Under the pieces are notes generated by a model. That model was not told the DNA's origin and ran no database searches. It worked only from the letters and a program-made list of their open reading frames with translations. The position numbers and the translations under genes are program-made. From a virus, in the IMG/VR virus record IMGVR_UViG_3300025674_000224, positions 1-31,144 of that record: a DNA stretch of 31,144 nt. The stretch is one strand, 5' to 3'. This document shows positions 26 to 26,699 of this stretch, piece by piece. How positions within the stretch are numbered: position 1 is the stretch's first letter; each line of letters opens with the position of its first letter.

Positions 26-199
26 ATGAGTGGTTTATTTTATTTTTTGATTGGATGGTTTTTTGCTATTATGTTCAAAAAGGTTGTATATACTCAACGC
101 GATAAGAATAAGCAGTTTAGTAAATGGAAGATGGTAAACAATTGGGGTGAAGGTGGAAACTCCGTAAGAAGAAATGTAAGTGGTTTATTTAAGAAATAA
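26..199 (+). CDS. Small single-pass membrane protein of unknown function
   Basis: This encodes a 57-residue protein that I do not recognise. Its first ~17 residues (SGLFYFLIGWFFAIMF) form one hydrophobic, aromatic-rich helix. A basic tail rich in Lys and Arg follows, so an N-terminal membrane anchor with a cytoplasmic tail fits best. A TTG at 11 is in frame but lies against the purine-rich Shine-Dalgarno GGAGAAGG (13-20). The ATG at 26 has the correct spacing and is the start chosen here. Its TAA shares the A at 199 with the ATG of the next gene (TAATG), which implies translational coupling to the RNA-ligase-like gene. Coding is supported by the RBS and coupling, not by homology. Confidence 0.6.
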   Translation: MSGLFYFLIGWFFAIMFKKVVYTQRDKNKQFSKWKMVNNWGEGGNSVRRNVSGLFKK

Positions 200-924
200 T
201 GTTTATTCCAGATAAGACATATTGTGATGCCTTAGTAGAAGAGTGCTCGGATGTTATAAAACAAGATTTTATTATAGATGGTTATAATATATCTTGTTAT
301 TTTCATAATAACATAGATCATGCTTCAATGCTTTATTATCAAGCGTTTGAGTTAGATGGTCTAACTTTTGTGAAGAATAGTAGTTTTGTTTGGGATAGAT
401 ATTTGATGACGCATAAATTATATTATCTCAACGAAAATGATTTAGTAAATGCAAATGATTTATCAGATGGTCAAATAGTAAACGCAACAGAGATAGTAGA
501 GGGTGAAACATTTATTTTTATAAAGTTACCTAATGGTAGAATAATACCTAAAACTAAGATGAGTTTTGATGATGATGTCTGTAGTGAAGTAAAAAGAATA
601 TCAAAAGAAAATAGAGATTTAAGAATATTAGTTAGTGGTTGTATGAAGAATAACCTACAACCCATATTTAAGTATCATAATAATAATATAACTTTAATAG
701 CGGTTAGAACAGCTACAGGTGAATACGCTGATTTAAAAAATGTTGATTTTAATATAATGAAGTCAATAACATATGAAATAGATGATGATCAATCTGATGT
801 ACAATATTGGATTGAGTATTCTAAACAAAAAGAAAACATTATAGGTTGGGTTTTATACTTTAATGATAGGATGATAAAACTAAACACCAGATGGTTTAAA
901 ATAAAACAAAAAAAATCTTCATAA
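199..924 (+). CDS. T4 RNA ligase 1 (gp63)-like protein lacking the catalytic lysine
   Basis: The 241-residue protein aligns by eye along its length with the nucleotidyltransferase domain of T4 Rnl1/gp63 (374 aa). Matching landmarks are FELDG (50-54), LYYLNEN (74-80), the stretch NNITLIAVRTATGEY (162-176, like T4 NVRENETGEY), YEID (192-195) and ENIIGWV (212-218, like T4 ENIEGYV). The active site is destroyed. The motif I KEDGS becomes IVEGE (99-103), and there is no Lys between 73 and 109. The motif IV Glu is Ile215, and the motif V KIKSDWY becomes KLNTRWF (227-233), losing one Lys. The C-terminal tRNA-specificity domain is missing. Ligation is therefore unlikely. T4 gp63 also promotes tail-fibre attachment, independently of ligase activity, and the position beside tail genes and fibres makes such a role a reasonable inference. 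The gene is followed by a strong terminator hairpin. Confidence 0.75.
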   Translation: MFIPDKTYCDALVEECSDVIKQDFIIDGYNISCYFHNNIDHASMLYYQAFELDGLTFVKNSSFVWDRYLMTHKLYYLNENDLVNANDLSDGQIVNATEIVEGETFIFIKLPNGRIIPKTKMSFDDDVCSEVKRISKENRDLRILVSGCMKNNLQPIFKYHNNNITLIAVRTATGEYADLKNVDFNIMKSITYEIDDDQSDVQYWIEYSKQKENIIGWVLYFNDRMIKLNTRWFKIKQKKSS

Positions 925-928
925 CAAT

Positions 929-965
929 TCCCTTTAATATATTTATATTAGAGGGATTTTATTTT
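929..965 (+). terminator. Rho-independent terminator after the ligase-like gene
   Basis: A 12-bp stem pairs 929-940 with 945-956 (one G-U pair), closes on a 4-nt loop, and is followed by a T-rich tract at 957-965. It begins 5 nt after the stop codon of the ligase-like gene and ends 13 nt before the gp13 ATG, separating the two transcription units. The apex carries TATTTATA (940-947), which is TATAAATA on the minus strand. Confidence 0.8.
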
Positions 966-978: not shown

Positions 979-2214
979 ATGGCTTTTGATAACTTCTTCA
1001 CAGAGTTGACTCAACCTGCTGTAGATACTGATTTTTCTGGTGTTTTTGGAACGCTGGCTCAGGAATTTGCCTTAAGTGCTGATTTGCGTTCTTTATCTGC
1101 AGAGAGTACTGAGATTGTTAAATGGGTTAGATATCGTTTAGGTGAACCTAAAATACCCGTTGAATTAGATAACAATCAGATTTTCGCAGCTTTTGAAGAA
1201 TCTAATATAGAATACGGTGCAATTGTTAATAAATCACAAGCATCTAATTGGTTAAGTACACTATATGGCTTAAACAACGATTTTTCCTCTCAGAATTTAA
1301 CCAACAAACTTCCATATCCCACATTAGACTACTTAATGAGACTAGCTAATCCTTATGCTAGTGAAGCTGGTGTTGGTGGAGTTCAAAATCAAAGACTGGC
1401 TAAGGTTACTATAACTGCTGGTAACGATAGAACTGACTATAATCTACTAACAGACTTCATAGATAAAGATACTAACGACACAATAGAAAATTATGTAAAA
1501 AGTGTTAATGGTGGTAAAATAGATGTTAGAAATGTAATGCATAATGAACCTTCATCTATTTATCGTTATTATGATCCATATTCAAGCGTAAACCTTATGC
1601 AACAAGAGTTTGGATACGAAAGTTTTAATATGGAAACTGCTTTTTATATGTTACCTATCTATGCTGATGTTTTAAGAGGTGGTTTATTAGAAACAAATGA
1701 TAGAGTTAGAAGAAGTAATCACAGTTATCATATAGCTGGTGATAGGATAAGATTTTTACCTCAACCAAATGTAAATACTAATGTTTGGATTGAATATACA
1801 GTAGCAATGGATCCATTTAATCCAGATTTTGCGGTTGACACTGGAGACCCTAGTGTTAATGGTATTACTAGCATACATAATATTCCTTTTACAGACATTA
1901 AATATGAAGATTGTAATGCTTCTGGTAAGTCTTGGATAAGGCAATATTGTTTGGCTGTTTCTATGGAAATGTTAGGTAGAATTAGACGTAAATTTTCTTC
2001 TATACCTATTCCTAATGGTGAAATACAATTAGATGGTGATGCTTTGATACAAGAAGCTATAGAAAAACAACAACAACTAAAAGAAAACTTAAAAGAAGAA
2101 TTAAAGGAATTAAATAATGTTGAGTTAATGCAGCGTCAAGCTGATATGGCGGAAGCTATGGAAAGACAATTGCAGCTTGTTCCACAACACTCACCAATAC
2201 TCATGTTAGGATAA
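979..2214 (+). CDS. gp13: Neck protein, T4 gp13-like (head-tail connector)
   Basis: This encodes a 411-residue soluble protein with GGAG (968-971) upstream of the ATG. The N-terminal half has a connector-like segment (VKWVRYRLGEPKIPVEL at ~47-63, then FAAFEESNIEYG). A central region contains RVRRSNHSYHI and RIRFLPQPNVNTNVWIEY. The C-terminal ~60 residues are Gln/Glu/Lys-rich and predicted helical or coiled coil. It is longer than T4 gp13 (309 aa). I assign it from remembered marine T4-like neck proteins together with its place directly before gp14- and gp15-like genes, as in T4. In T4, gp13 and gp14 form the collar that closes the filled head and accepts the tail. It is the first gene after a terminator. 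The exact identity is moderately certain; a head-tail connector is likely. Confidence 0.6.
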   Translation: MAFDNFFTELTQPAVDTDFSGVFGTLAQEFALSADLRSLSAESTEIVKWVRYRLGEPKIPVELDNNQIFAAFEESNIEYGAIVNKSQASNWLSTLYGLNNDFSSQNLTNKLPYPTLDYLMRLANPYASEAGVGGVQNQRLAKVTITAGNDRTDYNLLTDFIDKDTNDTIENYVKSVNGGKIDVRNVMHNEPSSIYRYYDPYSSVNLMQQEFGYESFNMETAFYMLPIYADVLRGGLLETNDRVRRSNHSYHIAGDRIRFLPQPNVNTNVWIEYTVAMDPFNPDFAVDTGDPSVNGITSIHNIPFTDIKYEDCNASGKSWIRQYCLAVSMEMLGRIRRKFSSIPIPNGEIQLDGDALIQEAIEKQQQLKENLKEELKELNNVELMQRQADMAEAMERQLQLVPQHSPILMLG

Positions 2215-2217: not shown

Positions 2218-2757
2218 ATGGCAGGAAGAGATTTACCTAATAGCGCAACAGCAGATACTAATTATGGATTATTTTTTACTCCTAGAGATATGTCGTTATT
2301 TAATGACTATTCTACGGAATTATTGGAAATCATTGCTAAAACGAAGGTAAAATATTGGAGGGTAGAAAAAGATTTCTCAGACCCTAATGATATATATGGA
2401 GAGAGTGATAAAAAAGTAACAAGAGAGCCTATAGAAGTTTTTTGTTGGATTATGTTAGACGATCCTGTTACTCAAACAGGTCAATATACAACTGAGGTAA
2501 AAAGAAATATTGAATGTTATATGCATAAAGATAGACTTAATGAAGTTGGTCTTGTTCCAAGAATAGGTGATTTTATTGAATATGATAATCAATATTTTGA
2601 AATTACTACAGCTGATGTTCCAAGAAATGTTTTTTCTTATGAACAAACAAAGTTAGGCGTGATAGTGAGATGTATATCTGTTCGCGAAGATGTTTTTTCT
2701 GGTAATCGTGATAGCACTAATACTGAAATAGAACACGATTCAGCCAACCCATATTAA
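2218..2757 (+). CDS. gp14: Neck protein, T4 gp14-like
   Basis: This encodes a 179-residue protein starting 3 nt after the gp13 stop, with AGGATAA as a weak ribosome site. The stretch GLVPRIGDFIEYDNQYFEIT (residues ~117-136) resembles the T4 gp14 segment in which the protein is read as EGDLIYFPMDNSLFEI. An aromatic-rich segment precedes it (KYWRVEKDFSDPNDIYGE). This 'GD.I.Y...YFEI' pattern is typical of neck and head-completion proteins. T4 gp14 is larger (256 aa), so this would be a compact version lacking the C-terminal extension. Position between gp13- and gp15-like genes supports the call. A generic head-tail adaptor is the main alternative. Confidence 0.55.
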   Translation: MAGRDLPNSATADTNYGLFFTPRDMSLFNDYSTELLEIIAKTKVKYWRVEKDFSDPNDIYGESDKKVTREPIEVFCWIMLDDPVTQTGQYTTEVKRNIECYMHKDRLNEVGLVPRIGDFIEYDNQYFEITTADVPRNVFSYEQTKLGVIVRCISVREDVFSGNRDSTNTEIEHDSANPY

Positions 2758-2768
2758 GAGATTTTAAA

Positions 2769-3590
2769 ATGGCAGAAGCAAAAAGTGAATTATCAACAAT
2801 TATTGAGATTGATGAAGTAAACATACTTTCTATTGATAAAGCTGTTTACGATTGGTTTGATAAAAAACATCCAACAATAATAAAAGGACGTAAGGTTCCT
2901 GTTTTATTTGGTGGTTGGGAACGTTTTGCTCAGATGCAAGGTAATAAAGAAGATGAAACATTAAATAATCTTCGTGACCATAATGGTATGTTGAAATTAC
3001 CTATAATATCTATCCGTAGGGGTGATATAGAACCTAATAACAACAGATTTAGAAAACTAACTGTTGATGGTGAACCTAGTATTACGATTAGTAAAAAAAT
3101 TGCTCCTAGTAAATTTGAAAAAGGTAGAAGAATACCATTTCATCAATTAGAAAATAATGGGTTAAAAGCAACAAATGAAGAACCATCTTATGAAGTTCAT
3201 AGAGTTCCATTCCCAGATTTTATAAATGTTCCTTACACTATAACATTTTGGTCATCTTATGTAAAAGACTCTAACTACTTTAGTGATAAAATTTGGAGTG
3301 AATACTTTTTGGATGATATGGAATATAAAGGTTATTTCTTTTATTCATATTTCAATACATCAACTAATGATAGTAATACACAAGACTTCTCTGGTGAGGA
3401 GAGAATTATTAGAACTACTTATGAACTTCAGTTAGAGGCATATTTAATTTCAAAATCGGAAATAAAAGTTGATAGAACACCATCTAAGATAGTTATGGAA
3501 GAAAACATTATTGATTCTGATGAAGTTGAATTTGAAGGAAAAACAATAGATGAAATTGTAAGTATATTTAATACAACTTATCCATTATAA
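2769..3590 (+). CDS. gp15: Tail completion and sheath stabiliser protein, T4 gp15-like
   Basis: The 273-residue length matches T4 gp15 (272 aa). The segment VPYTITFWSSYVKDSNYFSD followed by KIWSEYF (~155-182) aligns by pattern with the T4 stretch MIYELSIFTRYEDDMFQIVE. An upstream FGGWERFAQMQ and RKLTVDGEPSITIS fit the N-terminal domain. In T4, gp15 forms a hexameric ring terminating the tail tube and sheath and linking to the neck. Gene order gp13-gp14-gp15 matches T4. The C-terminal tail (ESEVEFEGKT-like, acidic) is variable in the family. After it the T4 order breaks: gp16 and gp17 do not follow; fibre genes do. Confidence 0.65.
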   Translation: MAEAKSELSTIIEIDEVNILSIDKAVYDWFDKKHPTIIKGRKVPVLFGGWERFAQMQGNKEDETLNNLRDHNGMLKLPIISIRRGDIEPNNNRFRKLTVDGEPSITISKKIAPSKFEKGRRIPFHQLENNGLKATNEEPSYEVHRVPFPDFINVPYTITFWSSYVKDSNYFSDKIWSEYFLDDMEYKGYFFYSYFNTSTNDSNTQDFSGEERIIRTTYELQLEAYLISKSEIKVDRTPSKIVMEENIIDSDEVEFEGKTIDEIVSIFNTTYPL

Positions 3591-3593
3591 GTT
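3575..3593 (+). terminator. Weak hairpin spanning the gp15 stop codon
   Basis: AACTTAT (3575-3581) and ATAAGTT (3587-3593) form a 7-bp AT-rich stem with a 5-nt loop across the TAA. An AT-rich, T-biased stretch follows but there is no clean T-run. It could attenuate transcription into the fibre genes, or it may be chance in AT-rich DNA. Confidence 0.25.
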
Positions 3594-3626
3594 ATATTTA
3601 TTTTATATAAGTGGAGAAATATATAA

Positions 3627-6197
3627 ATGGCATTAGTAGCAGATATTCAATTACAGAATGGTTCGGTTGTACCAGAGAAACTTGACACAACACAAAATTA
3701 TTCAACTGCCGGTCTTACAGCTACCACAGCTTTAGCGGCAGGTGAAGGACTGCCTATAACAACCAGTGGATTAACTACTTTTGTTACTGCAAATAATTTA
3801 CAAAGTTGGTTTACCTCTACAGCAACAAACGGTGACTCAAGCATTGTATTAAATAATGATAGTAATCAAAAATGGGGCATAAGACTTAAAGGATCAGACA
3901 GTGATAAGTTTATTATAGATGGAGGTGATAACGTAAGTGCTCCATCTATTGAAACAACTTATATGTCAATAAAAACAGCAGGACATTTTGGCTTTGGAAC
4001 AGCTGATCCATCAACAACAACCATTGCTGATTTTGCCGCTTATACTTCAGCATCTGCCGCAATAAACTTAGATAATATAACAGAAGGAACAACAATAAGA
4101 ATAGCTGCTGAAAGTACTAGTGGATCTTTTGGTACTATATCTAATAATAATGTTGGTTTAAGAGTTAATGGAAATACAATTGCTACTGTAAATAGTAATG
4201 GTATTGATTTAGAGGCAGGCAAATTATATACTGTTAATGGACAACAAGTTTTAGGTGGAGCTATAGAAACAACAAAAGGTTGGCCTAATTATGTTTCAAC
4301 GACTAATGATGCTGTAAAAATAACTTTTGTTGATATTAAGGATAGTAGATTTGTTTGGGATTGGGAATATGCAAAAAAATATACAAGATTAACTTCTTGG
4401 TATTCTGTTTTGGGTGAAGTACCTAGATATGGTATACTTTTAATAGACGCTAGTCAAAACGCACTAACTTGGGTTGATAGAGATGATGATGTGTTAACTG
4501 CGTATATGACATTTAATGTTGGTGCAAATAATATTATATCAGGCACAACTATAAAAGATTATAGTTTCTTAGACTTTAAACTATATGTAGCCACTGATGA
4601 TAGCGGACTTATAATAATTGACTTTTTGGAAGATAGAGCCTATCGTGTAACTAATATTGGTGTTGATTCATATAATGGAACCATATCAGAAAGAAATGAT
4701 GGTAATGGATGGACAACTATTTCCACAGCTGCTGTTGTTCACGACATAGTATTAGCTAATCTTAATGTTAACTCAGTTAGTGTAGCGAGAGATCCTGCTG
4801 GCGAAGAGGATAGTTTTATTAGACCACTTCACTTCTGGGCAGCTGCATGTGGAACAGGCTCAGATGCTACTTCTACTGGTGGGTTATCTATATTTAACCC
4901 CGAAACTAATAAAGTTTATGATGATGATACTGTAACTCCAAGAAATGTTAAAGATGTTAAAATATTGGAGGATGGTAAGGTTTGGTGGATAAAAGATGAT
5001 AACACAGATGATATTATTAGATATGCAACAAGTATTAGATCTATTTTAAGTGATAATTATGGTTCTCATAGTTTTAGTCCTTCTCTAACTGATGGTCAAA
5101 AATTAGTAAGTGTAACAACAGATGACTTAAATTCAATAGACGCATACCCACAAGGTTATTTGAACGGAAGTTTAGCTATTCATACATATGACCAAGCAAA
5201 AGGTATTCACTTTATACACAATGATGAGACTAATCCTAATTTATCAGCTTTTTATGTTATAACATCTGGATATACTACTCCTTATATGAGAGGTGGGCGA
5301 GTTGGTGGTTGGCCTTTGGGTGATGTTTTAGATAAGAGTGGAATAGGTAATAATTTTACAAACAATAATACTGTAACTTTTTCAACAACTAATGCTCCTT
5401 ATAGTAACAAAGCTATTTTTAATGGAACAAACCAGTATTTGTCATTAACAACAAGTGATTTTGCTTTTGGAACTAATTCAGCTTATTTTTCTGGGTGGAT
5501 TAGGAGTTCTTCTTCTATTAACCCTTCCGGAACAGAAATGGTTATTAACGCTTTTGACTCCGTTGGCCCAGATAACGCATTTCAAATATATTATGATACA
5601 TCTGGTTTTTTAAATTTCGCAGTACAAGATGATGTAGGTTCTACTGTAACGGTTACTTCGCCGGGTGATTTATATGATACAGAATGGCACTTTGTAGTAG
5701 CACAGAGAAATGCTACTGATGATGTTATAGAACTTTGGGTTGATGGTTTTCTTGTAAAGTCAGCAGCTTTTTCTGATACTGGTGTTAACAATACCACTAC
5801 AATTCATGTTGGTGCAAACAACGCAGTAGCTGAGTTTTTTGCTGGGGAAGTATCAAATATAACATTTAGTAATGATGTTCACTTATCAAGAAAAGAGATA
5901 ATTGGTGAGTATACAAGAGGTAAAGTTACTATTTCTCAAGTAACAACTCAGATAACATCGGACACTATAACATCTATTAATGTAGATATAGATAGTGCAT
6001 ATGCTATAGTAGCTGCAAATAACACAGCTAATATAATTGACTTACTAAAAGGTCATTTGTATAGTAGTGATGCTGTTACTAGCGGAACATTAAATGATGT
6101 TGATATAAAAACTATGATTGGTTCTTATACACCTCATTATTTATTAGGAGGTTCATTAAGTATAGAACAAGTAGCAGCTAACACAATAATTGACTAA
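3627..6197 (+). CDS. Tail fibre 1 with propeller-like and LamG-type domains
   Basis: The 856-residue protein starts with GVALV-type fibre sequence (ADIQLQNGSVVPEKLD at ~5-20), a common phage fibre N-terminus. Residues ~40-210 are Asn/Ser/Thr/Gly-rich shaft with one FGFGTADPS module. Residues ~215-560 contain repeated short beta segments such as YGILLIDASQNALTWVDRD, KLYVATDDSGLIIIDFL and KVWWIKDD, suggesting a beta-propeller. Residues ~572-766 look like a concanavalin/LamG-type jelly roll (AIFNGTNQYLSL, FSGWIRSS, EWHFVVAQRN, IELWVDGFLVKSAAF), which usually binds glycans. No S74 domain is present. The RBS is GGAG at 3612-3615. It is the first gene of the fibre block and probably a receptor-binding fibre or spike. 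Confidence 0.75.
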   Translation: MALVADIQLQNGSVVPEKLDTTQNYSTAGLTATTALAAGEGLPITTSGLTTFVTANNLQSWFTSTATNGDSSIVLNNDSNQKWGIRLKGSDSDKFIIDGGDNVSAPSIETTYMSIKTAGHFGFGTADPSTTTIADFAAYTSASAAINLDNITEGTTIRIAAESTSGSFGTISNNNVGLRVNGNTIATVNSNGIDLEAGKLYTVNGQQVLGGAIETTKGWPNYVSTTNDAVKITFVDIKDSRFVWDWEYAKKYTRLTSWYSVLGEVPRYGILLIDASQNALTWVDRDDDVLTAYMTFNVGANNIISGTTIKDYSFLDFKLYVATDDSGLIIIDFLEDRAYRVTNIGVDSYNGTISERNDGNGWTTISTAAVVHDIVLANLNVNSVSVARDPAGEEDSFIRPLHFWAAACGTGSDATSTGGLSIFNPETNKVYDDDTVTPRNVKDVKILEDGKVWWIKDDNTDDIIRYATSIRSILSDNYGSHSFSPSLTDGQKLVSVTTDDLNSIDAYPQGYLNGSLAIHTYDQAKGIHFIHNDETNPNLSAFYVITSGYTTPYMRGGRVGGWPLGDVLDKSGIGNNFTNNNTVTFSTTNAPYSNKAIFNGTNQYLSLTTSDFAFGTNSAYFSGWIRSSSSINPSGTEMVINAFDSVGPDNAFQIYYDTSGFLNFAVQDDVGSTVTVTSPGDLYDTEWHFVVAQRNATDDVIELWVDGFLVKSAAFSDTGVNNTTTIHVGANNAVAEFFAGEVSNITFSNDVHLSRKEIIGEYTRGKVTISQVTTQITSDTITSINVDIDSAYAIVAANNTANIIDLLKGHLYSSDAVTSGTLNDVDIKTMIGSYTPHYLLGGSLSIEQVAANTIID

Positions 6198-6211
6198 ATA
6201 GAGTAATAAAC

Positions 6212-7018
6212 ATGGCACTAAAATTTTCTGAAAGACAAGAAATAACGAGACAACTTAAAGAGTTTTTTGAAGTATCTGGTGGTGGTATTCAAATAACAAA
6301 TGATGTTGCTAATAGATTGTTAACTGCTGGTGGTGATGGGCAATCAGTTGTTGGTCAAGCAAATCTTACTTTTAATGGAACACAATTAGATTTAACAGCT
6401 AATGCAGTAATAACCACAAATGCTGCGAGTAATGCTCCTATTTTGGATGTTTTTAATTCCAATACAACATCCAGTGCTAAACCTATGTTTAGATTAGGTG
6501 TTGACGCTACGTCATCATTGGAAATTTACAGAAACGGTAATGATCCAACTATATATCTAAATGCTAATCAAAGTGGAAATGGCGCAATGGCTCTTCAAAC
6601 TAGAGGAGCTACAAGAATATTAATGGATGCAGATATAGGATTCTATGATAACACTGTTTCTTCATTAGATTTTTATTGGGATACAACAAACTCTGCGTTA
6701 AGTATCGTAAGTGATGGTGGATCTTCTATAACTTCTCCAAAATCTGCGTTGGATGTTCGTGGTAGTTTGACTTTGGGAGAAGCTACTTCCAATGCTATTT
6801 TAAATACTAATGAATTCGGTAAGATAGAATTTTATAGTTATGATAATAGTGTTAATTCATCTGGTGTAACCTCAAAAATAGTAAATATAGCAACAGCTGA
6901 TTTTTCGGCATCAAATAATAATCACCGTTTAGGATTTTTTATTAACGATGGACTAACTAACACCGGTACACTTCAAGAGCGTTTGAGTATACTACAAAAT
7001 GGCAATATCGGCATCGGT
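6212..7018 (+). repeat. N-terminal fibre anchor duplication, copy 1
   Basis: The first ~270 codons of fibre 2 correspond residue for residue with those of fibre 5 (copy 2 at about 13934-14743). Differences are largely synonymous at DNA level or conservative at protein level, with a less conserved window around residues 95-145. Similarity collapses right after the first GN[VI]G[IV]G module. Confidence 0.85.
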
Positions 7019-8689
7019 AAAATAGACCCTTCTTACTCTTTGCAAGTTAATTCTCAAACAGCAACCGATGCAAACTATATAGTAGCTGGAGATACAACTT
7101 TTGTTGCGGCTTTAGGAAGTCAAGATAGTCCGGGTATAGCTCAAGAAGCATTTGTTGGTACATTAACTAATCACGATTTTAAATTAAAAACTAATGACAC
7201 TGAACAAATGCGTATCACAAGCGCAGGTAATGTTTTAGTTAACACAACAGCCCTTAATTCCTCACCTCTTAATGTTAATAATGAAATATCTTTAGGTGAT
7301 TCTGCTGATGAAAGAGGAATTGTTAATTTCTCATCCAGTGAATTAACACTTGGAACAAGAACTTCTTCTATAAATTATTTTAACACACTTAGAGTTAAGG
7401 AAGGAACAGTTGCTGTAGGAGCATCAAATACCAATGCATTAGGAAATGGTGGAACACCAATTATATTACAAGTAGGTGGGGATGGTTCAGCTGACTTACA
7501 ACTTTATACAACTTGTGTTAATGGTGGAGCTGGTAACACTATTAGTTTTGGAACATCTGGTGCATCAAGCACAAAACAAAGTGCTACTATATCATCATTA
7601 TTAGAATCAGCTGTAACAACTCATGCAACTGGTAATTTAGTATTTGGCACTAATGGTGGTGCTGGGATAACTGAAAGAGCCAGATTTAGAAGTGGTGGTT
7701 GTTTGTTTTTATTAGGTGGTAATGGAGTTTTAAGTGGTTATACATCACAAGAGCCATTAAATGTTTTTGGTAATGGTGGTGGTATAATGATTTTTAGAAA
7801 TGATACAGCTGCACCTACAAACACACAAGTATTGGGTAGTTTGGGATTTAAGGGGATAGATAGTGCAAACTCTAATGCAGCTGCTGAAGCAAAAATAGAA
7901 GCTGTAGCTACAGAAAATCACAGTGGTTCCACGGCACAAACAGAATTACAGTTTTACACTAAACCTACTGGAACTGGTCCGGGTAGTGCTCCAAGAAAAG
8001 CTATGACTATTGATGCAGCTGGTAGTATAGATCAAGATGGTCCTTATCTGTATTTGGGTGGTAGAGCAGGAACATATAATGGTGTAATAAACAACCCAGC
8101 TTCTATTAGAATAAATTTTGACTCTAATAATAATTCTACAACAGAATCTTTTGATATAGGTCATAATCAATGCGCTATAGACTCAAATAACAAATTATTT
8201 GGTGTTTGTGAAAATGGTAATGTATGTATTTATTCTGGTAATTTATATATTAATAAGGGAAGTTCTACTTCTGGTTTTATAACCACAGTTGAGTGTCAAG
8301 TTAGTTGTTCTACAACAATGGATATTTTAATACTTGCGTCAGAATTTAAAGTATTAGAAGTTTTTGGATCCGTTAATCCTAATGTTAATGGTTCAGCTGA
8401 ATATCGAGATATCATACATATGTATATATACAATGGTATAGGGTATAGCGCTCCAAATGTTAGTAATTTTATTTATACACAACAAATATCACCTATAGCA
8501 AGAACCATCTATCCTTCTGGAAGTAGTTGTTCTGCAGATACTCCAATTGTTGCTAATTGGTATAATGGAGTTACTTTAACTGATAATATTGCAACTACTG
8601 ATCACAACAGTTATTGTATAAGGTTGTGTATGGATTCAGCTCTCGTTGGATCAAGTGAATTCTGTGTTTCAATAACAAAAAGATATTAG
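6212..8689 (+). CDS. Tail fibre 2, shared anchor with unique C-terminal head
   Basis: This encodes 825 residues. Residues 1 to ~270 are a near-copy of the N-terminus of the fibre at 13934 (MALKFSERQEITRQLKEFFE at 1-20), probably the attachment and shaft-start region. A shaft follows with modules such as GNIGIGKIDPSYSLQV (~264-279) and AGNVLVNTTALNSSPLNV. Gly/Ser/Thr/Asn-rich beta-helical shaft continues to ~685. The last ~135 residues are a compact, aromatic, Cys-containing region (SCSTTMDILILASEFKVLEV, then HMYIYNGIGY and the end SSEFCVSITKRY) that is not S74 and that I do not recognise; a TNF/C1q-like jelly roll is one possibility. The ATG is 15 nt after the previous stop. Confidence 0.75.
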   Translation: MALKFSERQEITRQLKEFFEVSGGGIQITNDVANRLLTAGGDGQSVVGQANLTFNGTQLDLTANAVITTNAASNAPILDVFNSNTTSSAKPMFRLGVDATSSLEIYRNGNDPTIYLNANQSGNGAMALQTRGATRILMDADIGFYDNTVSSLDFYWDTTNSALSIVSDGGSSITSPKSALDVRGSLTLGEATSNAILNTNEFGKIEFYSYDNSVNSSGVTSKIVNIATADFSASNNNHRLGFFINDGLTNTGTLQERLSILQNGNIGIGKIDPSYSLQVNSQTATDANYIVAGDTTFVAALGSQDSPGIAQEAFVGTLTNHDFKLKTNDTEQMRITSAGNVLVNTTALNSSPLNVNNEISLGDSADERGIVNFSSSELTLGTRTSSINYFNTLRVKEGTVAVGASNTNALGNGGTPIILQVGGDGSADLQLYTTCVNGGAGNTISFGTSGASSTKQSATISSLLESAVTTHATGNLVFGTNGGAGITERARFRSGGCLFLLGGNGVLSGYTSQEPLNVFGNGGGIMIFRNDTAAPTNTQVLGSLGFKGIDSANSNAAAEAKIEAVATENHSGSTAQTELQFYTKPTGTGPGSAPRKAMTIDAAGSIDQDGPYLYLGGRAGTYNGVINNPASIRINFDSNNNSTTESFDIGHNQCAIDSNNKLFGVCENGNVCIYSGNLYINKGSSTSGFITTVECQVSCSTTMDILILASEFKVLEVFGSVNPNVNGSAEYRDIIHMYIYNGIGYSAPNVSNFIYTQQISPIARTIYPSGSSCSADTPIVANWYNGVTLTDNIATTDHNSYCIRLCMDSALVGSSEFCVSITKRY

Positions 8690-8698
8690 AGGTATTAA

Positions 8699-11446
8699 AT
8701 GGCTTATTGTAATAATATAGTATATAGTAACTGTATTGGTAGAGTAGGTATTGGATTAGGGAATGCTAAACCTACTGAAATACTTGAAATAAATGGAGCC
8801 TTAAAATCTAATACTTTTGCACAGAATTGGGCTTACTGTTCAACATTTATTGATCGTAATGTGGATGCAACTCGTATTGTTGCAGGTGCAGCAGGAAGTC
8901 AAAGCAGTTGTATAACATTTCACACATACAATGCTGGCTCTCATCATTGTCATATGGTTATCACAAATGAAGGTAAGGTTGGCATAGGCTGTATCAATCC
9001 CCTTTCTCAATTACACGTAACTGACAGTGGGTTACAAAACGGAACTTTGCGTGTTGGCGGAAACCTGGCTTCTTTAGGTTTAGAAATTTCTTACGATCAA
9101 GCTGCAGCCACTGTGGCCACAATATATAACAATCCAACATACACAAACAATGCTCAGTTATTAAAAATTGGTACTGATGGTGACGCTAACCCTAATCAGT
9201 TGGTCCTAAAGGGGGATGGAAACATCGGCATCGGAACGGATGTGCCAGATGGCACTCTGCACGTACATACTGCCTCGGCTGGGTCAGTTACTGCAAATGG
9301 CTCAGCAGACGATTTAGTCGTCGAATCATCGGGCGATGCAGGACTGTCAATTCTAACTCCAGCAGCAAATAATGGTCGAATTTATTTCGGATCGCCCACC
9401 AATAATGCATACGGCCAGATTGATTACGATCACGCAACGAACGACATGGTGTTTGCTACCGCTGGAGCTGGTAGGCTAACGATTGACACGAGCGGCAACG
9501 TCGGCATTGGCGTAACCGATCCGGACTATGATTTGCACGTCCAAGATGATGTTGAAGCTAATATAAAAATAGAAACAAACAATAATGGTTCTGGTAATTT
9601 TGCTGGGCTTAGAATGTTTAAAAGTCGTGGAACATACGCAGCACCCACTTCGGTAGCTAACGGAGATACAGTAGCTCAAATTTTGATTTATCCTCGCGAT
9701 GCATCGGGTTGGAATAACACTGCTAGAATGTACGCTAAAATTTGTGGAACAGTTACCTCTACTGATACACCAACTGATTTGATTTTCTCAACTGGAACAA
9801 CAGGATTAAGTGATAGACTATGGATAAAATCAGATGGTAAAATTGGTATAGGCAGTTCTGATCCCAGCTATCTTTTAGAAGTAAAAGATGCAAACACTAC
9901 TTCTACTGCTATTCAAGCTAAAAACACAACTGGATCCCAAGCAGCATTACAAATTGCAGCAACTTCAAGTTCATATAATGCACATGGGGTGGGAAATAGT
10001 GAATCTTGGTTAGTTGATGAAGTTGGTAATGCATTAAATATCGGACCTCCAAGTAGTAAAAACACACCTATAAAATTCGTCCAGAATGGTGGAGTTATAG
10101 GTAAGTGGGACGCTGGAGGTGCTTTTGGTATTGGAGCTTATGGAACAAACAGTTTAAGAGCCAACGAGTTTTTTATTAGTAACACTTGTTCAAAGGCACA
10201 AATAGAAGGGACAGATTCGGGAACTTCTTCTTTGCAAATAATATCTAACTCTACAACGGAAGGTCCGATCTTAGGTTTGTCAAGAAGTCGTGGCACAACC
10301 ATAGGAAGTCACACATTAGTTACCAATAATGATAATCTTGGAAGTGTTTTGTTTTTTGCTTCAGATGGTTCATCTGGATTTACACAAGGAGCCGGAGTAA
10401 CTGGTAAAATAAATAATGCAAATCCTACAGTAACCATAGCTTCTAATCAAATACCTGTTGATTTGGTTTTTTCAATAAATGATGGTGGAACAGGTTGTGG
10501 AGTATCAAATGTAGGACGTTTTTCTCATGCTGGTAATTTTTTGGTTGGGTGTAACTTAGCGTGTGGTAATGGAATGATTACTGCATTGGAGAAAAGTGGA
10601 TATGGGGTTCTTGAGGCAAGAGCTACTACTGACTTTGGTGATGGAGGCGGTGGAGTTATTGTTACACGAGCTGTTGATTGTAACTCTACTAATTGGGCTA
10701 TTGGTTGTCATACAGCACATAGTCATAAATTTCACACAAATGGAACAACCATTGCAATGTGTTTAAATGAATCCGCTAAGCTTTGTGTTGCTGGGGAAAT
10801 ATGTTCATCAACTTGTATTAGAGCTAATAACTGTGTTGTTGCTCCTACAGTTTGTGGTAGCACTCTTATGAAGGGTTGTGTAATATGTGGGTATAGAACT
10901 GGAACTGGTCTTGTTGGTGGTTTGCGAATTGAGAGGTGTGATACAGTAGGAGGTAAAACAACCTGTTTTCTTGTTCAAATAAACCCAGATAATAATTGTG
11001 TTGTTTTAGTTGCTGGCTGCGCCAGTCAATCTGGTATCTTATGTTCTACTCAAACATTTAGAGCACCTGTAATGTACACCAACGATTGTTTTTGCACTCC
11101 GGGTTGCGTGCATGCTTCGTTTTATTGTTCTACTGGTGATATAACTGCTGCCGGTGACATAACATCTTCATCTGATTGTAGGTTAAAATCGGAAATAGAA
11201 GTAATAGATTGTGCTATACTTATAGTAAATAATTTATGTGGTAGAAGATATGTAAAAGATAATAAAAGAACTATTGGTGTTATTGCTCAAGAGGTGGAAA
11301 AAGTATTACCGGAAGTTGTATTTACTAATGAAAGTAAAGATGAGTATAAATCAGTATCTTACGGCAATATAGTAGCTGTTTTAATAGAGGCTATAAAAGA
11401 ACAAGACAAAAGAATTAATGAACTTGAAAAATTGATAGGTAAATAG
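8699..11446 (+). CDS. Tail fibre 3 with C-terminal Peptidase_S74 chaperone
   Basis: This encodes 915 residues. Shaft modules of the G-x-[VI]-G-I-G type recur at ~13-36, 93-108, 174-190, 265-281 and ~380-395. A Cys-rich region (~690-800, e.g. CVVAPTVCGS) precedes the S74 domain at ~823-915. S74 domains are intramolecular chaperones that trimerise fibre tips and then cleave themselves off. The hallmark SSSDCRLKS (823-831) holds the candidate nucleophile Ser825 next to Asp826 and the Lys of RLK. GVIAQEVEKVLPEVV and SVSYGNIVAVLIEAIKEQ follow, then a short coiled coil at the end. A patch of higher GC (about 9176-9545) marks a transferred segment. It differs at the N-terminus from fibres 2 and 5, so it may attach differently. 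Confidence 0.8.
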   Translation: MAYCNNIVYSNCIGRVGIGLGNAKPTEILEINGALKSNTFAQNWAYCSTFIDRNVDATRIVAGAAGSQSSCITFHTYNAGSHHCHMVITNEGKVGIGCINPLSQLHVTDSGLQNGTLRVGGNLASLGLEISYDQAAATVATIYNNPTYTNNAQLLKIGTDGDANPNQLVLKGDGNIGIGTDVPDGTLHVHTASAGSVTANGSADDLVVESSGDAGLSILTPAANNGRIYFGSPTNNAYGQIDYDHATNDMVFATAGAGRLTIDTSGNVGIGVTDPDYDLHVQDDVEANIKIETNNNGSGNFAGLRMFKSRGTYAAPTSVANGDTVAQILIYPRDASGWNNTARMYAKICGTVTSTDTPTDLIFSTGTTGLSDRLWIKSDGKIGIGSSDPSYLLEVKDANTTSTAIQAKNTTGSQAALQIAATSSSYNAHGVGNSESWLVDEVGNALNIGPPSSKNTPIKFVQNGGVIGKWDAGGAFGIGAYGTNSLRANEFFISNTCSKAQIEGTDSGTSSLQIISNSTTEGPILGLSRSRGTTIGSHTLVTNNDNLGSVLFFASDGSSGFTQGAGVTGKINNANPTVTIASNQIPVDLVFSINDGGTGCGVSNVGRFSHAGNFLVGCNLACGNGMITALEKSGYGVLEARATTDFGDGGGGVIVTRAVDCNSTNWAIGCHTAHSHKFHTNGTTIAMCLNESAKLCVAGEICSSTCIRANNCVVAPTVCGSTLMKGCVICGYRTGTGLVGGLRIERCDTVGGKTTCFLVQINPDNNCVVLVAGCASQSGILCSTQTFRAPVMYTNDCFCTPGCVHASFYCSTGDITAAGDITSSSDCRLKSEIEVIDCAILIVNNLCGRRYVKDNKRTIGVIAQEVEKVLPEVVFTNESKDEYKSVSYGNIVAVLIEAIKEQDKRINELEKLIGK
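9176..9545 (+). other. GC-rich mosaic patch inside fibre 3
   Basis: The 60-base row at 9481-9540 has 33 G/C by hand count (55%) and 9181-9240 has 31 (52%), whereas the rows on either side, 9121-9180 and 9541-9600, have 17 and 16 (about 27%). Codons switch to GTC, ATC, GGC, CCG and GCC forms rare elsewhere in the gene. The reading frame is intact. It spans two consecutive GN[VI]GIG shaft modules, consistent with import of a shaft segment from a higher-GC phage. Confidence 0.7.
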
Positions 11447-11448
11447 AT

Positions 11449-13932
11449 ATGTCTATATGTAATCGCGTTGTAAATATAACTTCGGCTGGTGCAGCAATTA
11501 TATCAGATAATCCAACTGAAACTGCTACAGGGACGTTAAAAGTCCATAGATGCAGTTCAGCAGGTAATACTTGTCTTACTATATCTCACGCAAATAGTAC
11601 AAAATATTCATATGTTCAATTACAAAACGATGATAACAGCCACCAATATCACTTGGGAATAGGTAATACAGCAGTTCCGAATGCAGCTGTTAGAGGCAAG
11701 TTTTATTTATTTGCAAATGCTTCAAGTAAATCTTTACTTGAAATAGATTCTTCTGGTAGAGCAAAGTTTCAGACTTCTGTAGGTAGTGGTGGTGCAAACG
11801 CTAGTGCCACATGGCATACGGAAACCTCTGGTCTTCAACTTGTTGGTCCGTGTGCTTGCACCTTATCTAGATTTATGATTACAGCAGTTGATCCATCTTC
11901 TTCACCAAATGCTTGTGCAGTATATTCTCAGTTGACAATGGGCCATTGGGATAACAGCAGAGTTCTTTTAGAGTCAACCGGAAAACAATTGATGATTACT
12001 TCTTACGATGAAGGTATAGCTTTAGGTAATGATGGTAGTGCAGAACTTTGTATTGGGACTTCAGGTGATGTAATTATTAAACCTACAACAGCAAAAAATG
12101 TTGATCCTCTTGGAACTTTGTGTTTGGATATTACGGGTAGTACAAACCCACAAAATGGTGGTATAGTTATGAACTCTACCTCTCAAACACACATAAGATT
12201 TCTATCTAGTGGAAATCTTTGTTGGCAATGGAGACATCACAATCCTACTACTGAAGATAAGTTTTCTGCTTATAGTTGGACAAGAGCGTGTGATATGTTT
12301 AACATACAAGGTTCCAATACATATTTTGGAAGTTATGGACATATAACTTCTTGTGCGCCGATATATATAGCAAACTCATTAGATCCTTATTTTATAAATA
12401 CTGGTGGTAATAAATGTATGAATTTTTATTATTTTGCATGGCCTGGCTGTTCTTGTTTTGGTCAAACACACCTTATGGCTAGATTTGATAGTTCTCTGAC
12501 TAATGTATGTCAAGTATACCCAACAGCAACATTATATAACGCAAATGAAACAGAAGGAACATCTTCGACATTGGCTTTTGCTGGTAAAGAGACTGGTGGA
12601 GGTAATTCAGTTGGATTGGCGTATATTAGTGGAAGAAAAGAGGGTTCTACTACTGGTAGCTGGGGCAAGGGTTCTTTAAATTTTCTTGTGAATTGTGCTG
12701 GTGTTCAATGTTGGACAATGTGTATGACCATGCATGGTGGTGTTTGTGTAATAAAATGTCTTGTAGCTCCAAGTATACAGATGGCTAACAGCAATTGTAT
12801 TCTTTGTTTAGCTGCAACAGGATCTGGAGGTCCATATATTCAAGGTTCTGCAGATTGCACTATTTCTTATTGGGGAATAGATAGTAGTTGGAAAGCACAA
12901 ATAAATTCTGATGGTGGTTTTTGTGCGGCTAATTGTGTTGTGGCTCCTGTTTTTTGTGCAAATAGTACTACTGTTCCGTTATCTTTAGTGCATTCTGGTG
13001 TAGCTACGTATAATTGGTGCTTCATTGATACTAATAATTTATCCTTTCACCCTAATACAACATCTACAAAAACCCTTTATTTCTGTAACGCTGGAACTGG
13101 AGTTATGAATGTTTGTGCTGACGGGTGTTTTAAATCTCCTATTGTTTGTGGAACTACATGCCTTAGCGGTAGTTTTCTATTGATCGGTTGCAATGCTGCT
13201 GGATTAGGTTGTGGTGTAACTGCTTGCTTTTCAAGAATAAATGACACAGGTCCAGATGGACATAGGTTAGCAATTGTTGTTGATCCAGCAGCTAATGTTG
13301 TTCTTTATTGTTCAACAGGCACTAGTTTGGGTGGACATTGTTTTTACAACTGTGCTTTTTCTCCTTACATATACGCAACTTGTTTTTGTGGCACAGAATG
13401 TGTAAAATCTCCTGTTATTTGCGCTACCACAACAATGCAAGTAGGAGGAAATAATGTCCTGACCACAGCAAGCCAAGTTGGAGCTAACTTTTGTGCCGGA
13501 ACAGATGTAAATAATAGAGTGGTGACAGCAAATGGCGATTCTGGCTCATTATGTGGCGAAGCCAATATGACTTTTGACGGAAGTACATTAAACGTTACAG
13601 GAGCTATAACTGCTTCGGGAGATATTACCTCTACATCTGATGAAAGAGTAAAACGTGAAATAGCAGCAATTTGTGGAGCTATACAAATAGTAAACAATCT
13701 TTGTGGAAGAATATTTATAAAAGATAATCGCCAGCAAGTAGGCGTCATTGCTCAAGAAGTAGAAAAAGTTTTACCACAAGTTGTTTTTGAACATAGTGAC
13801 AATGATTTAAAATCTGTTTCATACGGAAACATTGTAGGAGTTTTGATAGAAGCTATAAAAGACCAAAACAAAAGAATAGATAATCAACAAGAAGAAATAG
13901 ATTGTTTAAAAGAAATAATAAAGAGTAAATAA
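11449..13932 (+). CDS. Tail fibre 4, Cys-rich, with C-terminal Peptidase_S74
   Basis: The ATG is 2 nt after the previous stop. This 827-residue protein is Ser/Thr/Gly/Asn-rich with few GNVGIG modules, unlike its neighbours. Residues ~490-680 are strongly Cys-rich, with repeated units such as CVVAPVFCANST, CFKSPIVCGTTC (~559-570) and CVKSPVICATT (~651-661). After CAGTDVNNRVVTANGDSG, a small TFDGSTLNVTGAITASGDI element leads to the S74 domain (~728-827): STSDERVKRE with Ser730-Asp731, then GVIAQEVEKVLPQVV, then SVSYGNIVGVLIEAIKDQ. A coiled coil ends the protein. S74 should release after trimer folding. Why a cytoplasmically folded fibre carries so many cysteines is unclear; metal binding or post-lysis disulphides are options. 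Confidence 0.8.
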   Translation: MSICNRVVNITSAGAAIISDNPTETATGTLKVHRCSSAGNTCLTISHANSTKYSYVQLQNDDNSHQYHLGIGNTAVPNAAVRGKFYLFANASSKSLLEIDSSGRAKFQTSVGSGGANASATWHTETSGLQLVGPCACTLSRFMITAVDPSSSPNACAVYSQLTMGHWDNSRVLLESTGKQLMITSYDEGIALGNDGSAELCIGTSGDVIIKPTTAKNVDPLGTLCLDITGSTNPQNGGIVMNSTSQTHIRFLSSGNLCWQWRHHNPTTEDKFSAYSWTRACDMFNIQGSNTYFGSYGHITSCAPIYIANSLDPYFINTGGNKCMNFYYFAWPGCSCFGQTHLMARFDSSLTNVCQVYPTATLYNANETEGTSSTLAFAGKETGGGNSVGLAYISGRKEGSTTGSWGKGSLNFLVNCAGVQCWTMCMTMHGGVCVIKCLVAPSIQMANSNCILCLAATGSGGPYIQGSADCTISYWGIDSSWKAQINSDGGFCAANCVVAPVFCANSTTVPLSLVHSGVATYNWCFIDTNNLSFHPNTTSTKTLYFCNAGTGVMNVCADGCFKSPIVCGTTCLSGSFLLIGCNAAGLGCGVTACFSRINDTGPDGHRLAIVVDPAANVVLYCSTGTSLGGHCFYNCAFSPYIYATCFCGTECVKSPVICATTTMQVGGNNVLTTASQVGANFCAGTDVNNRVVTANGDSGSLCGEANMTFDGSTLNVTGAITASGDITSTSDERVKREIAAICGAIQIVNNLCGRIFIKDNRQQVGVIAQEVEKVLPQVVFEHSDNDLKSVSYGNIVGVLIEAIKDQNKRIDNQQEEIDCLKEIIKSK

Positions 13933-13933
13933 T

Positions 13934-14743
13934 ATGGCATTGAAATTTTCTGAAAGACAAGAAATAACTAGACAGTTAAAAGAATTCTTTGAAGTATCTG
14001 GTGGTGGCATATCTATAACAAATGATGTTGCCAACCGATTATTGACTGCTGGTGGTGACGGACAATCAGTTATTGGACAAGTTAACTTAACTTTTAACGG
14101 AACACAATTAGATTTAACGGGCAATGCTGTTGTTACTACAAATGCTGCAAGTAATGCTCCTATTTTAGATGTTTTTAACTCAAGCACAAGTTCTTCTGCT
14201 AAACCTATGATTAGAGTAGGTAATAACGCTCTTGCTGCATTAGAATTATATAGAGTAGGTGATTCATCTACAACATATATAAATGCTAATCAAAGTGGTA
14301 ATGGCGTATTAACTCTACAAACAGATACTTCTTCTCGTTTAACTATTGAATCAAGTGGAAATATTGGTATATATGATTCAACATCAACTACTACAGATTT
14401 TTATTGGGATGCTGCGAATTCTAAGTTAGGTATCGTTGGTGATGGTGGTTCTGTCTTAACCTCTCCAAAATCCGCGGTGGATGTTCGTGGTAGTTTAACT
14501 CTTGGCGAAGCTCCTTCTAATAGTATTTTAAACACTAATGAGTTTGGCAAAATAGAGTTTTACAGTTATGATAATAGTTTGAATTCATCGGGTGTTACAT
14601 CCAAGGTAGTAAACATTGCAACATCTGACTTTTCGGCATCAAATAATAATCATCGACTTGGTTTTTTTATTAATGATGGTTTAACCACTACTGGAACTCT
14701 TCAAGAGCGATTGAGTATATTACAAAATGGAAATGTTGGCGTA
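13934..14743 (+). repeat. N-terminal fibre anchor duplication, copy 2
   Basis: This is the partner of 6212-7018. Shared landmarks are SERQEITRQLKEFFEVSGGG, LTAGGDGQSV, FNGTQLDLT, SPKSA[LV]DVRGSLTLGEA, NTNEFGKIEFYSYDNS and LQERLSILQNGN. Abundant third-position changes indicate an old duplication kept by selection, not a recent copy. Confidence 0.85.
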
Positions 14744-17700
14744 GGAACGGAATCGCCATCAGCCGCATTGTCTGTGCAATACAACCCTGCTACAACTAAC
14801 GGATTTGAGTTAATCGACAGTAGAGACATAAACTGCAGAGTGGGATTTTTGGCATCGGGTGGCGCACTCGGAATCTATACGTCCACAATCGGCAGCTTTT
14901 CGTCTTCAAATTTAGCTATCGCTGTTGATACATCCCAGCGCGTCGGCATCAATACGGGTTCACCAACACACACGCTTGACGTAAACGGTAGTGTACAGAT
15001 AGAGCGAAATGGTGCGTCTCCGTTGTTGCGATTTACAGACACCTCGTCGTCCTCGCGTTGGATCGGCATACCCGACGGCTCCAGTAGATTCGCAATTTAC
15101 GGCACTAATGGGTTGACCGAGGAATTTGTGCTTTCTGGCGGTAACGTTGGCATAGGAACGACCTCGCCATCTTCATATTCTGCATACGCTCGCAATTTAG
15201 TCGTTGCTTCAAGTGGTAATGGTGGGGTGACGATAAAATCTGGAACAACTTCTACGGGTAATATCTTTTTTGCGAACGCTGAAGCATCTACCTCAAACAA
15301 TGGCGTAATCCAGTATAACCACAACACTAATGAGTTTAGATTTGACAATTACGGAACCAATCAGTTTTACAGTTTTAATATACAGAACAGTGAAAAAATG
15401 ATAATAACTAGTGCTGGCCATGTTTTAATAGGGTTAACATCAAATGTTGGTTTTGGAGGGTCAGATAAACAGTTATTAATAAATGGAACCACTAACTCAA
15501 GATTAGAATTTGGTGTCGGTGGCGCTCAGTTAGGTGGATTATATGCTAATGCTGATAAAATGGTTGTTTACACTTCTGGACAAGATTATCTTGAATTTGA
15601 TACAAATAGTATTGAAAGAATGAGAATAGATAGCGCTGGCTCAATATTTATGGGAGGAAATCATTTATCATCAACACCCGGAAATGCAATTGTAGCTGCT
15701 CCTTATGGATCTGGAACTGATATTGATGGTGGGGATTTTAATATATACGCTGGTCGCTCTACAGGAACAGGAGCTGGTGGTGATATAATCTTATACACAT
15801 CTCCTGCAGGTGTCTCAACAGGAAGCGGTATAAATGCTCATATTGAAAGGATGAGAATAACTAGTGATGGTAAGGTTGGCATTAATGTGGACCCAGCCCG
15901 TCAATTATCAGTTTTGGGTGAGGGAAATGCTACTGTCGCAACTATTATAACTCCATCTACAAGTGGAGGTAATTTCGGCATATTAGATTTAAAAAGACAA
16001 GACAATGCAGTTAATTCTTCTATAGGTGTTCGTTTTAGTCACGGAAACAGTGCGAATGTAACTAACGATATAGAATATGGTTTCATAGGTGGTGGTATAG
16101 AATGTCCCGCTGCCGGTTCAGAAAAGGGGTTTTTAAATTTTGCAGTTGGGCCTGGGCGAGCAGAACATATGAGAATAACTGGTGATGGTAACGTTGGCAT
16201 TGGCACTGATATGCCCGGTTCTGTTTTGGATGTAAGAGGCGGAAATGTTCGTATTGATGGCGGTAGTGTTACCGATAGACAGTTATACTTTAGAAATCAA
16301 TCCACAGGCACAGTGGGTGGTAGTATTAGAAGTGATCAAACATTAAGTTTATTTGCTGGTGTTGGCGGTTCACCAAACCAAGCGGTAACAATAGAAAGAG
16401 AAACATTATATACTGGTATCGGTATTGATAACCCCACACATAGATTGCATGTAAATGAATCTACAGGAGAATTACTTAGATTACAGGGTTGTTTAAATTA
16501 TAATTACGACATTACAACAAAAAGTACTGGTTATCATTTTGATCACGAAATAGGGTCAGGCAATGCTACATTTTCTTGGTCTAGTAGTTCTAATGGTGAG
16601 ATGATGAGAATTGACCAAACTGGATTGGGTGTGGGTACTAATGATATAAACACTAAGTTGCACATTAGTGGAGATTTTGACGGTTCTTCTAATTATGGAG
16701 GAAACAACCCAAACAAAGGTATACTAATAGAAAAAAGAAGTGGTATAGGAAGTGATTATAGTATTAATGACGCATTCGGAATAGATTTTACTTCTTCATC
16801 AAATGCTGCACTGACATATCCAGTTGCTGGAATATATGCTGTAACTAAAGATGTTGCTTCTTATAACGGTGGTGAATTACATTTATTGACAAAGTGTAAT
16901 ACTGATGCTACTTTACAATCAAGAATGATGATAAATAGGGGTGGTAATGTCGGCATAGGCACGAATGTGCCAGATACTTTACTTCATATTTCTGGAAGTG
17001 GCAATATTGTAGGTAAGGTTGTTTCTACGAACGCAGCGGCTGTTTTGCAAGCTGATTCTGTATCTACCGAATCTTCAATATTATATTTTACTACAGCCGG
17101 ATCTCAAGCTTGGAAAATTCAAAAAGCTCCTACTACTGGTAATTTAGAAATAAGAAACTCAACTGACTTAACAAAATTTGCTATGTTGGATAATGGTAAT
17201 GTCGGCATCGGCCAAAATTCTCCGGAAGTTCTTCTTGATGTTAGAAAAGATGAAACTGTAAGTTTTGCACCTAATAGTGACCAAAGAATAAGAGCACAAA
17301 TTGTTGCTAGAAACAATAATGAAACTGCAGAAAATTTCTCTAGTATTAGCCTTGTTACAGGAGGTGGCAATCAATCTGAGTGGTCTATCAATAATGTTTA
17401 TAAATCTGCTTATAATGGCGATTTAGCTTTTAAAACAAGAGCTGGTGGGGGTGTATCCGATTGGCGTGAAAGAATGAGAATAACCAATGCTGGTTATGTC
17501 GGCATAGGTGTTGTTCCTACATCTAAACTTACTGTATATTCTCAATGTGGTTCTAATACTACCGGAAATAGCCTAGCTACAGATTTTGCTCAACCAGCAG
17601 CTAGTGGTGCTGTAACTTGTTACTGTAGGAATTTATGGTTTGGCTCAAATATAGTTTGTATGCCAGCAGCAGTTACAGATAGTGGATATAGAATAGGAAC

Positions 17701-25924: not shown

Positions 25925-26699
25925 ATCATTTATAGATAGATATACTTTTATGCAATCAAATAGGGTTGATCCTGCAACAAAAGTACCTGTTATATCAGAT
26001 AAAGAAAAAGTTGATGTAGATGGCGGAGCTGCTAATCTTGTTTCTCATTTAAAGAGTATATTTTTTAAAAATAATTTTATAAATAACAGTAGTTATTATC
26101 ACATAGAATTTTACACTAATGAAAAGAAACCTATAAAAGAAAGGTTTTATATAGACCATAAGCCAATGTATAGGTTTGATCATGGTGATAAAGTAAAACA
26201 TGATCGAAATATGATTAGTAATATGATAGATGAAATAAGAGAAGGTGATTATGTTATTATATCAAACTATCATAAGGGATTACTAAGTGATTATGACATA
26301 TATGATATATTAGATGTGTGTAAATTACGTAAAGTTATTACATTCGTAGATACAAACATAGTTAGTGAAGAATATTATGGTTGTGATTATCTTAAGATAA
26401 ATGAAAAAACGTTAATTGAATACGAAAATAATTTTAATCAAGATATAAAAAATCATTTTGGCAATGTTATTGTTACTATGGGTATAAACGGATACAAATA
26501 TTATGGAGATAACTTTATTTTGCAAAATGGAGATAATCACAACAAATATGATTTTATAGATAGTATTGGTGCTGGCGATGCATTTTTTGCTTCATTAATA
26601 TACAATATTATTACTGAAACCAATATTTATGAGAGTTTAAATAAAGCTGACAATTATGCGGCTGAAAGTTGTAAAAAATTAGGTACAATTAATATTTAA
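25899..26699 (+). CDS. PfkB-family sugar kinase, HldE/RfaE N-domain-like
   Basis: This encodes 266 residues. GESFIDRYTFMQSNRVDPAT (~7-26) and DGGAANLVSHL (~41-51) are the HldE-type 'GDSxLDRY...RxSPEAPVP...GGAANV' signature. KERFYIDHKPMYRFDHGD (~86-103), VIISNYHKGLLSD, and the catalytic SIGAGDAFFASL with GAGD at 224-227 (Asp227 the expected base) complete the ribokinase fold. HldE N-domains phosphorylate heptose-7-phosphate at C1 toward ADP-heptose. Only the kinase is present; the nucleotidyltransferase domain of bifunctional HldE is missing and must come from the host or elsewhere in the phage. It is shorter than usual (~310-320 aa). GAGG (25891-25894) lies close to the ATG, inside the upstream gene. 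Confidence 0.75.
   Translation: MKRLHIIGESFIDRYTFMQSNRVDPATKVPVISDKEKVDVDGGAANLVSHLKSIFFKNNFINNSSYYHIEFYTNEKKPIKERFYIDHKPMYRFDHGDKVKHDRNMISNMIDEIREGDYVIISNYHKGLLSDYDIYDILDVCKLRKVITFVDTNIVSEEYYGCDYLKINEKTLIEYENNFNQDIKNHFGNVIVTMGINGYKYYGDNFILQNGDNHNKYDFIDSIGAGDAFFASLIYNIITETNIYESLNKADNYAAESCKKLGTINI

Follow-up and report, generated by a model that had tools for sequence, protein, structure and literature searches.

The locus and its flanking genes

The window, that is, the whole stretch of 31,144 nucleotides that was analysed (IMG/VR virus record IMGVR_UViG_3300025674_000224), is a 31-kb fragment that begins 198 bp before an open reading frame encoding a protein of 241 amino acids, referred to here as the pseudo-ligase (Table 1). 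The TAA stop codon of the small gene in front of it overlaps the ATG of the pseudo-ligase gene (TAATG), and this overlap is common to the window and to the only close relative found, L001 (IMGVR_UViG_3300006802_015624). Behind the gene stands a terminator-like hairpin (-13.7 kcal/mol, z -3.3), every letter of which is identical in L001, and equivalents of which lie directly before the same neck gene in L090, L091 and L093. Because the hairpin separates the pseudo-ligase from the neck genes, the pseudo-ligase gene probably closes an upstream transcript rather than opening the neck operon. Sigma-70-type promoters showed no excess over chance, and the count of the T4-type late-promoter motif TATAAATA in the window is as chance predicts. 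One copy of TATAAATA lies at 940-947 on the minus strand, within the hairpin.

Elsewhere in the window, five long fibre-like proteins form an array at 3627-19147, and several of them end in S74 chaperone domains; the proteins at 8699-13932 appear by eye unusually rich in cysteine. Sugar-type genes lie in the tail region as well (22172-26699), among them those for a carbamoyltransferase (23341-25143) and for a PfkB-type kinase (25899-26699); unassigned open reading frames stand alongside. In L001, a GIY-YIG-like open reading frame (2145-2765) is found between the gp13-like and gp14-like genes, and the window has no such frame at 2214-2218.

Table 1. Features of the pseudo-ligase gene and its surroundings (window coordinates; residue numbers are those of the pseudo-ligase unless T4 is named).
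Feature	Position	Strand	Remarks
Small protein, 57 aa, hydrophobic N-terminus, likely single-pass membrane	26..199	+	Preceded by GGAG
Putative dead Rnl1 nucleotidyltransferase domain (pseudo-ligase)	199..924	+	PHROG 562, fold, dN/dS
D53 in place of T4 Rnl1 R54 (motif Ia)	355..357	+	82 of 83 homologues have Arg, the remaining one Lys (conservation partly by construction)
K73, equivalent to T4 K75, basic cleft residue kept	415..417	+	Lys in 83 of 83 homologues (partly by construction) and in both pseudo-ligases
Motif I replaced: TEIVEGET (residues 97-104), KxDGS in homologues	487..510	+	Lys in 83 of 83 homologues; L001 as the window
K118-T-K120, equivalent to T4 K117/K119, basic residues kept	550..558	+	Lys at the T4 K119 position in all 83 homologues; L001 has R at 120
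Motif III remnant FKY; T4 E159 to K158, next 11 residues deleted	667..675	+	Glu in 83 of 83 homologues
Motif IV: T4 E227 to I215	841..843	+	Glu in 83 of 83 homologues; Ile also in L001
Motif V KLNTRWF: K227 (T4 K240) kept, T4 K242 to N229	877..897	+	Lys at 229 in L001
Terminator-like hairpin, 12-bp stem, 4-nt loop, T-rich tail	929..956	+	Between pseudo-ligase and neck gene
Neck/head-tail adaptor protein (gp13-like)	979..2214	+	PHROG 211 'head-tail adaptor Ad2', E 6.3e-12

Family and fold of the pseudo-ligase

A preliminary description of this DNA, made from the letters and translations, had reported an extended similarity to the nucleotidyltransferase domain of T4 gp63 (RNA ligase 1, Rnl1 or RnlA). 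The similarity goes beyond chance when profile, tblastn and fold are taken together. Among the profiles, PHROG 562, 'RNA ligase and tail fiber protein attachment catalyst', matched (E 1.9e-9), whereas searches of Pfam (RNA_lig_T4_1, PF09511) and NCBIfam (TIGR02308) did not recognise the protein. By tblastn, intact relatives were found in phage genomes of 634-735 kb and in Xanthomonas phage X1, with E values down to 6e-17 in the huge phages. A weak Pfam match (GPR128 GAIN subdomain) and sequence matches to Rpo3 and Vivid in the PDB were rejected, as their scores were low and the structure does not back them.

An AlphaFold2 model of the pseudo-ligase, built with 40 window and IMG/VR sequences as input, has a mean pLDDT of 93.4. 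Its best match among solved structures is T4 Rnl1 (5tt6; Z 24.8, rmsd 2.7 over 230 residues), residues 4-241 of the pseudo-ligase superposing on residues 3-265 of the T4 enzyme, and this comparison, which had been proposed as a check, thus returned the same fold. The model therefore identifies the open reading frame as an Rnl1-type nucleotidyltransferase domain by its predicted fold. The next family is fungal tRNA ligase (Z 18.4); the adenylyltransferase domain of Trl1 is alike in fold but, unlike the pseudo-ligase, active, and is 13% identical to it. Identity to T4 Rnl1 is about 20%, and identity to the intact Rnl1 proteins encoded by huge phages and by IMG/VR relatives (L002-L006, L011-L089 and L096), with which the pseudo-ligase has the IKLPNGRI-K-K region in common, is about 23-34%. 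Unlike the pseudo-ligase, these relatives possess the full catalytic set and nearly all of them the C-terminal domain, L005 being without it.

Lost and retained active-site residues

Motif positions were scored on 80 loci from a profile scan of IMG/VR together with five phage records, and the scoring was repeated after T4 gp63 (NC_000866) had been added to the alignment. The comparison set comprises 83 homologues, many of them close kin (72 different rows among 85). Ten T4 positions are invariant in the 83 relatives, namely K75, K99, D101, G102, K119, E159, E227, G228, K240 and K242; the search patterns took in the K75 and R54 regions, so that conservation there is partly by construction, whereas K99, E159 and E227 lay outside the patterns.

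T4 K99 aligns to I99 of the pseudo-ligase, within 'NATEIVEGET', and there is no lysine between K73 and K109. The motif I lysine, present in all 83 homologues, is thus missing as the preliminary description had stated, and its reading of motif IV (Ile215) and motif V (KLNTRWF) likewise agrees with the alignment. Four changes come in addition to those it had listed: R54 to D53, Y37 to H36, E159 to K158 and the 11-residue deletion behind motif III. What has been kept from the T4 enzyme is the whole nucleotidyltransferase fold with the equivalents of K75, K117, K119, K240, G102 and G228. As regards its sequence, then, the pseudo-ligase is catalytically dead, nearly all motif residues of self-adenylation and of nucleotide and metal chemistry being replaced or deleted, and sealing, judged from these losses, cannot be its job.

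The C-terminal domain (Pfam T4_Rnl1_C) is also absent, as had been noted: the protein ends at the domain boundary, residue 241, and the hairpin and gp13 gene come next. This absence is not decisive alone, because L005 is also without the domain while its motifs are intact. The L005 protein (5914-6720 of LR756501, a 735-kb phage) is an Rnl1 of 268 aa whose active site is intact, and can be described as a natural minimal Rnl1.

A second copy and selection on the gene

The protein of L001 is 83% identical to the window's pseudo-ligase and shows the same losses, except that lysine is kept at 229. The catalytic losses are therefore no sequencing error, and a sequencing error or frameshift as the source of the lost C-terminal domain is ruled out, since L001 ends identically. 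Against the 83 homologues, K99, E159 and E227 are lost in just these two proteins. IMG/VR was searched for further dead copies with the protein, with an alignment and with a pair of degenerate motif patterns, and 84,980 prokaryote genomes were searched as well; only L001 came up.

Between the two copies, dN is 0.097 and dS 0.54 (dN/dS 0.18), and the excess of synonymous change is significant (p 5e-15). The neighbouring gp14-like and gp15-like genes have comparable ratios (0.17 and 0.19), and both pseudo-ligase frames are intact and of identical length. The gene is thus under purifying selection and is not decaying. Its dS is lower than that of its neighbours (0.54 vs 0.8-1.15), which hints at exchange of the gene between phages, though little weight attaches to this with one pair and near-saturated sites. 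Amino-acid changes are fewer in the motif-bearing segments (residues 41-119 and 205-232; 9 of 107 sites) than elsewhere (33 of 134; p 0.001), and the deficit is also seen when measured against synonymous changes (p 0.012); the borders of these segments were drawn with the alignment already seen, and the effect is partly ordinary core conservation.

The site in related phages

In the sister phages L090 and L091, which have a gp13-like protein 82% identical to that of the window, the order is small membrane-protein gene, hairpin and gp13, with no ligase between them and with stop codons that align exactly. The small protein is 91% identical to the window's in these two phages, where the ligase is absent, and 89% identical in L001; the neck genes of L091 are 75-82% identical to those of the window. 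A ligase directly before gp13 is also absent from L042, L093, L094, L095 and L096. The pseudo-ligase is thus not kept with the neck and tail genes across the lineage, and, because the sister phages have an exact empty site, the simplest reading of the gene orders is that it is an accessory gene gained on the branch of the window and L001, a small sub-lineage. Neither Rnl1 nor HD-kinase nor RlaP was detected in the 109-kb L091 record, which may be incomplete. That record does hold a 409-aa open reading frame (7793-9022), roughly 1 kb ahead of the neck gene, with the ligase-like motifs KVDGS, NAEVLYE and HEGIVV; it belongs to no Pfam, PHROG or NCBIfam family and has weak relatives in PA5oct-like Pseudomonas phages.

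Intact repair ligases occur near the same neck genes in other relatives. L042 encodes an intact Rnl1 (5692-6858), followed by an HD/AAA_33 kinase (6845-7897), RlaP (7899-8831; Pfam PF10127, E 3.5e-22), a sigma factor and then gp13 at 10502. In L096, the genes upstream of gp13 (10001) are an HD-kinase (61-1128), a truncated rnl1 (1415-1651), a GIY-YIG-like open reading frame and an intact Rnl1 (2632-3780). The stretch 1415-3780 of L096 reads as an RNA ligase duplicated or split by a homing element. The intact Rnl1 of both records stands about 3.6-6.2 kb upstream of the neck genes, whereas the dead copy of the window lies directly before the neck gene. In L030, a member of the same adaptor family and an intact Rnl1 are both present but widely separated. 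Since RNA-repair genes share the proximity to neck genes in this lineage, that proximity is no argument for virion assembly.

The ligases of L030, L042 and L096 form a supported clade (98/92). The stem of the dead pair is 2.2-2.4 changes per column, too long to be placed in the tree. Joining the pair to L030, L042 and L096 is not rejected (p-AU 0.37), and joining it to L042 and L096 alone is borderline (p-AU 0.069); these trees thus do not reject an origin of the dead pair in the repair ligase of its own lineage.

Proposed function

In phages, Rnl1 is known for the sealing step by which tRNA cut by host anticodon nucleases is repaired; in T4 it also has a second, puzzling part in the attachment of fibres. 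The reading favoured here, at a probability of roughly 0.45, is that the pseudo-ligase descends from Rnl1 as a single, catalytically dead domain and works by non-catalytic binding in the old active-site cleft. It corresponds to an alternative named in the preliminary description, a protein that does not seal but binds tRNA or else an inhibitor. A non-enzymatic job is suggested because the sealing machinery is gone yet the gene has been preserved by evolution. A binding role is favoured because K73, K118, K120 and K227 are kept while catalytic residues are lost, and because the segments of the old motifs changed least between the two known copies; however, the kept lysines may be structural, and the dead clade consists of two sequences.

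Under the binding model, the protein would hold an anionic ligand that it could not activate or seal, and the ligand would most likely be a nucleic-acid end, a nucleotide, or the protein by which such ends are made or repaired. Cleaved tRNA, or a nuclease or repair protein, is a natural candidate because T4 Rnl1 together with Pnk repairs tRNA cut by the host PrrC (PMC3014915). The pseudo-ligase may thereby act in the sphere of RNA repair and anti-defence, by sequestering its ligand, as a decoy or as a regulator. The C-terminal domain of Rnl1 is associated with tRNA specificity in T4, and its absence from the pseudo-ligase is a counterpoint to tRNA binding, although L005, with its intact active site, is also without it. 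A more particular proposal, that a repair ligase was turned into a decoy or sensor, either for broken tRNA or to block a host RNA-targeting defence factor, and was coupled to the small membrane protein, is possible but distinctly tentative.

Alternative explanations

Unlikely, though worth considering, is that the protein partners or inhibits an intact RNA ligase, or a complex for RNA repair, encoded elsewhere in the same phage or in the host, as in a heteromer with one dead subunit. The repair cassettes of L042 and L096 agree with this, as does the presence in L096 of adjacent truncated and intact rnl1 copies, by which duplication is seen to occur in related phages. On the other hand, no Rnl1 was found in L091, and T4 Rnl1 is not known to depend on a partner subunit.

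The preliminary description had proposed that the ligase chemistry was lost and that the protein was kept as a fibre-attachment factor. The first half of this proposal stands, as the protein appears dead and is under selection; the second is not supported, because of the empty site in L091, the conserved terminator and the RNA-repair genes near the same neck genes. The idea goes back to T4, in which gp63 promotes attachment of the long tail fibres and mutants separate attachment from ligation (PMC3004832). The PHROG 562 match and the several tail-fibre genes within the window are also in its favour. The fibres of L091 and the window differ (43% identity), which leaves room for a fibre-specific helper. 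Yet L091, with its highly similar neck genes and a related fibre, does without the pseudo-ligase, and its 109-kb record yielded no Rnl1; a conserved terminator stands between the pseudo-ligase and the neck genes; the window fibres carry S74 chaperone domains; and no gp9 or fibritin match was obtained among the ten window proteins scanned, though one could be missed. We know of no residues assigned to the fibre-attachment activity of gp63. A fibre-attachment specialist is, on balance, improbable.

More improbable still is a structural protein of the virion or neck, expressed with the late genes and serving as a protein scaffold. The gene adjoins the neck genes on the same strand and its dN/dS equals that of the gp14-like and gp15-like genes, but a terminator intervenes and sister phages with highly similar neck genes lack it. 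An enzyme still active through another lysine or a different chemistry is very unlikely: other lysines do lie in the cleft region (K73, K118, K120 and K227), but the equivalents of E159, E227 and R54 are lost as well and the motif III segment is deleted. Least credible is a decaying relic of a repair ligase, for which the patchy presence and long stem branch would speak, but which is contradicted by two intact frames of identical length, by the dN/dS of 0.18 and by a start overlap and terminator that are identical in both copies.

Significance

By its sequence, the pseudo-ligase is a naturally occurring pseudoenzyme of the phage Rnl1 family, and a rare one, with two copies found. A search of the open-access literature, which leaves out most subscription journals, turned up no earlier description of a catalytically dead Rnl1 from a phage. 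A naturally dead yet conserved Rnl1 domain separates sealing from the other roles of the family and offers a natural test protein for non-catalytic functions of the Rnl1 fold. If the proposal of a decoy or sensor is true, the pseudo-ligase would belong to a new class of phage proteins, derived from a repair enzyme and serving counter-defence (or assembly).
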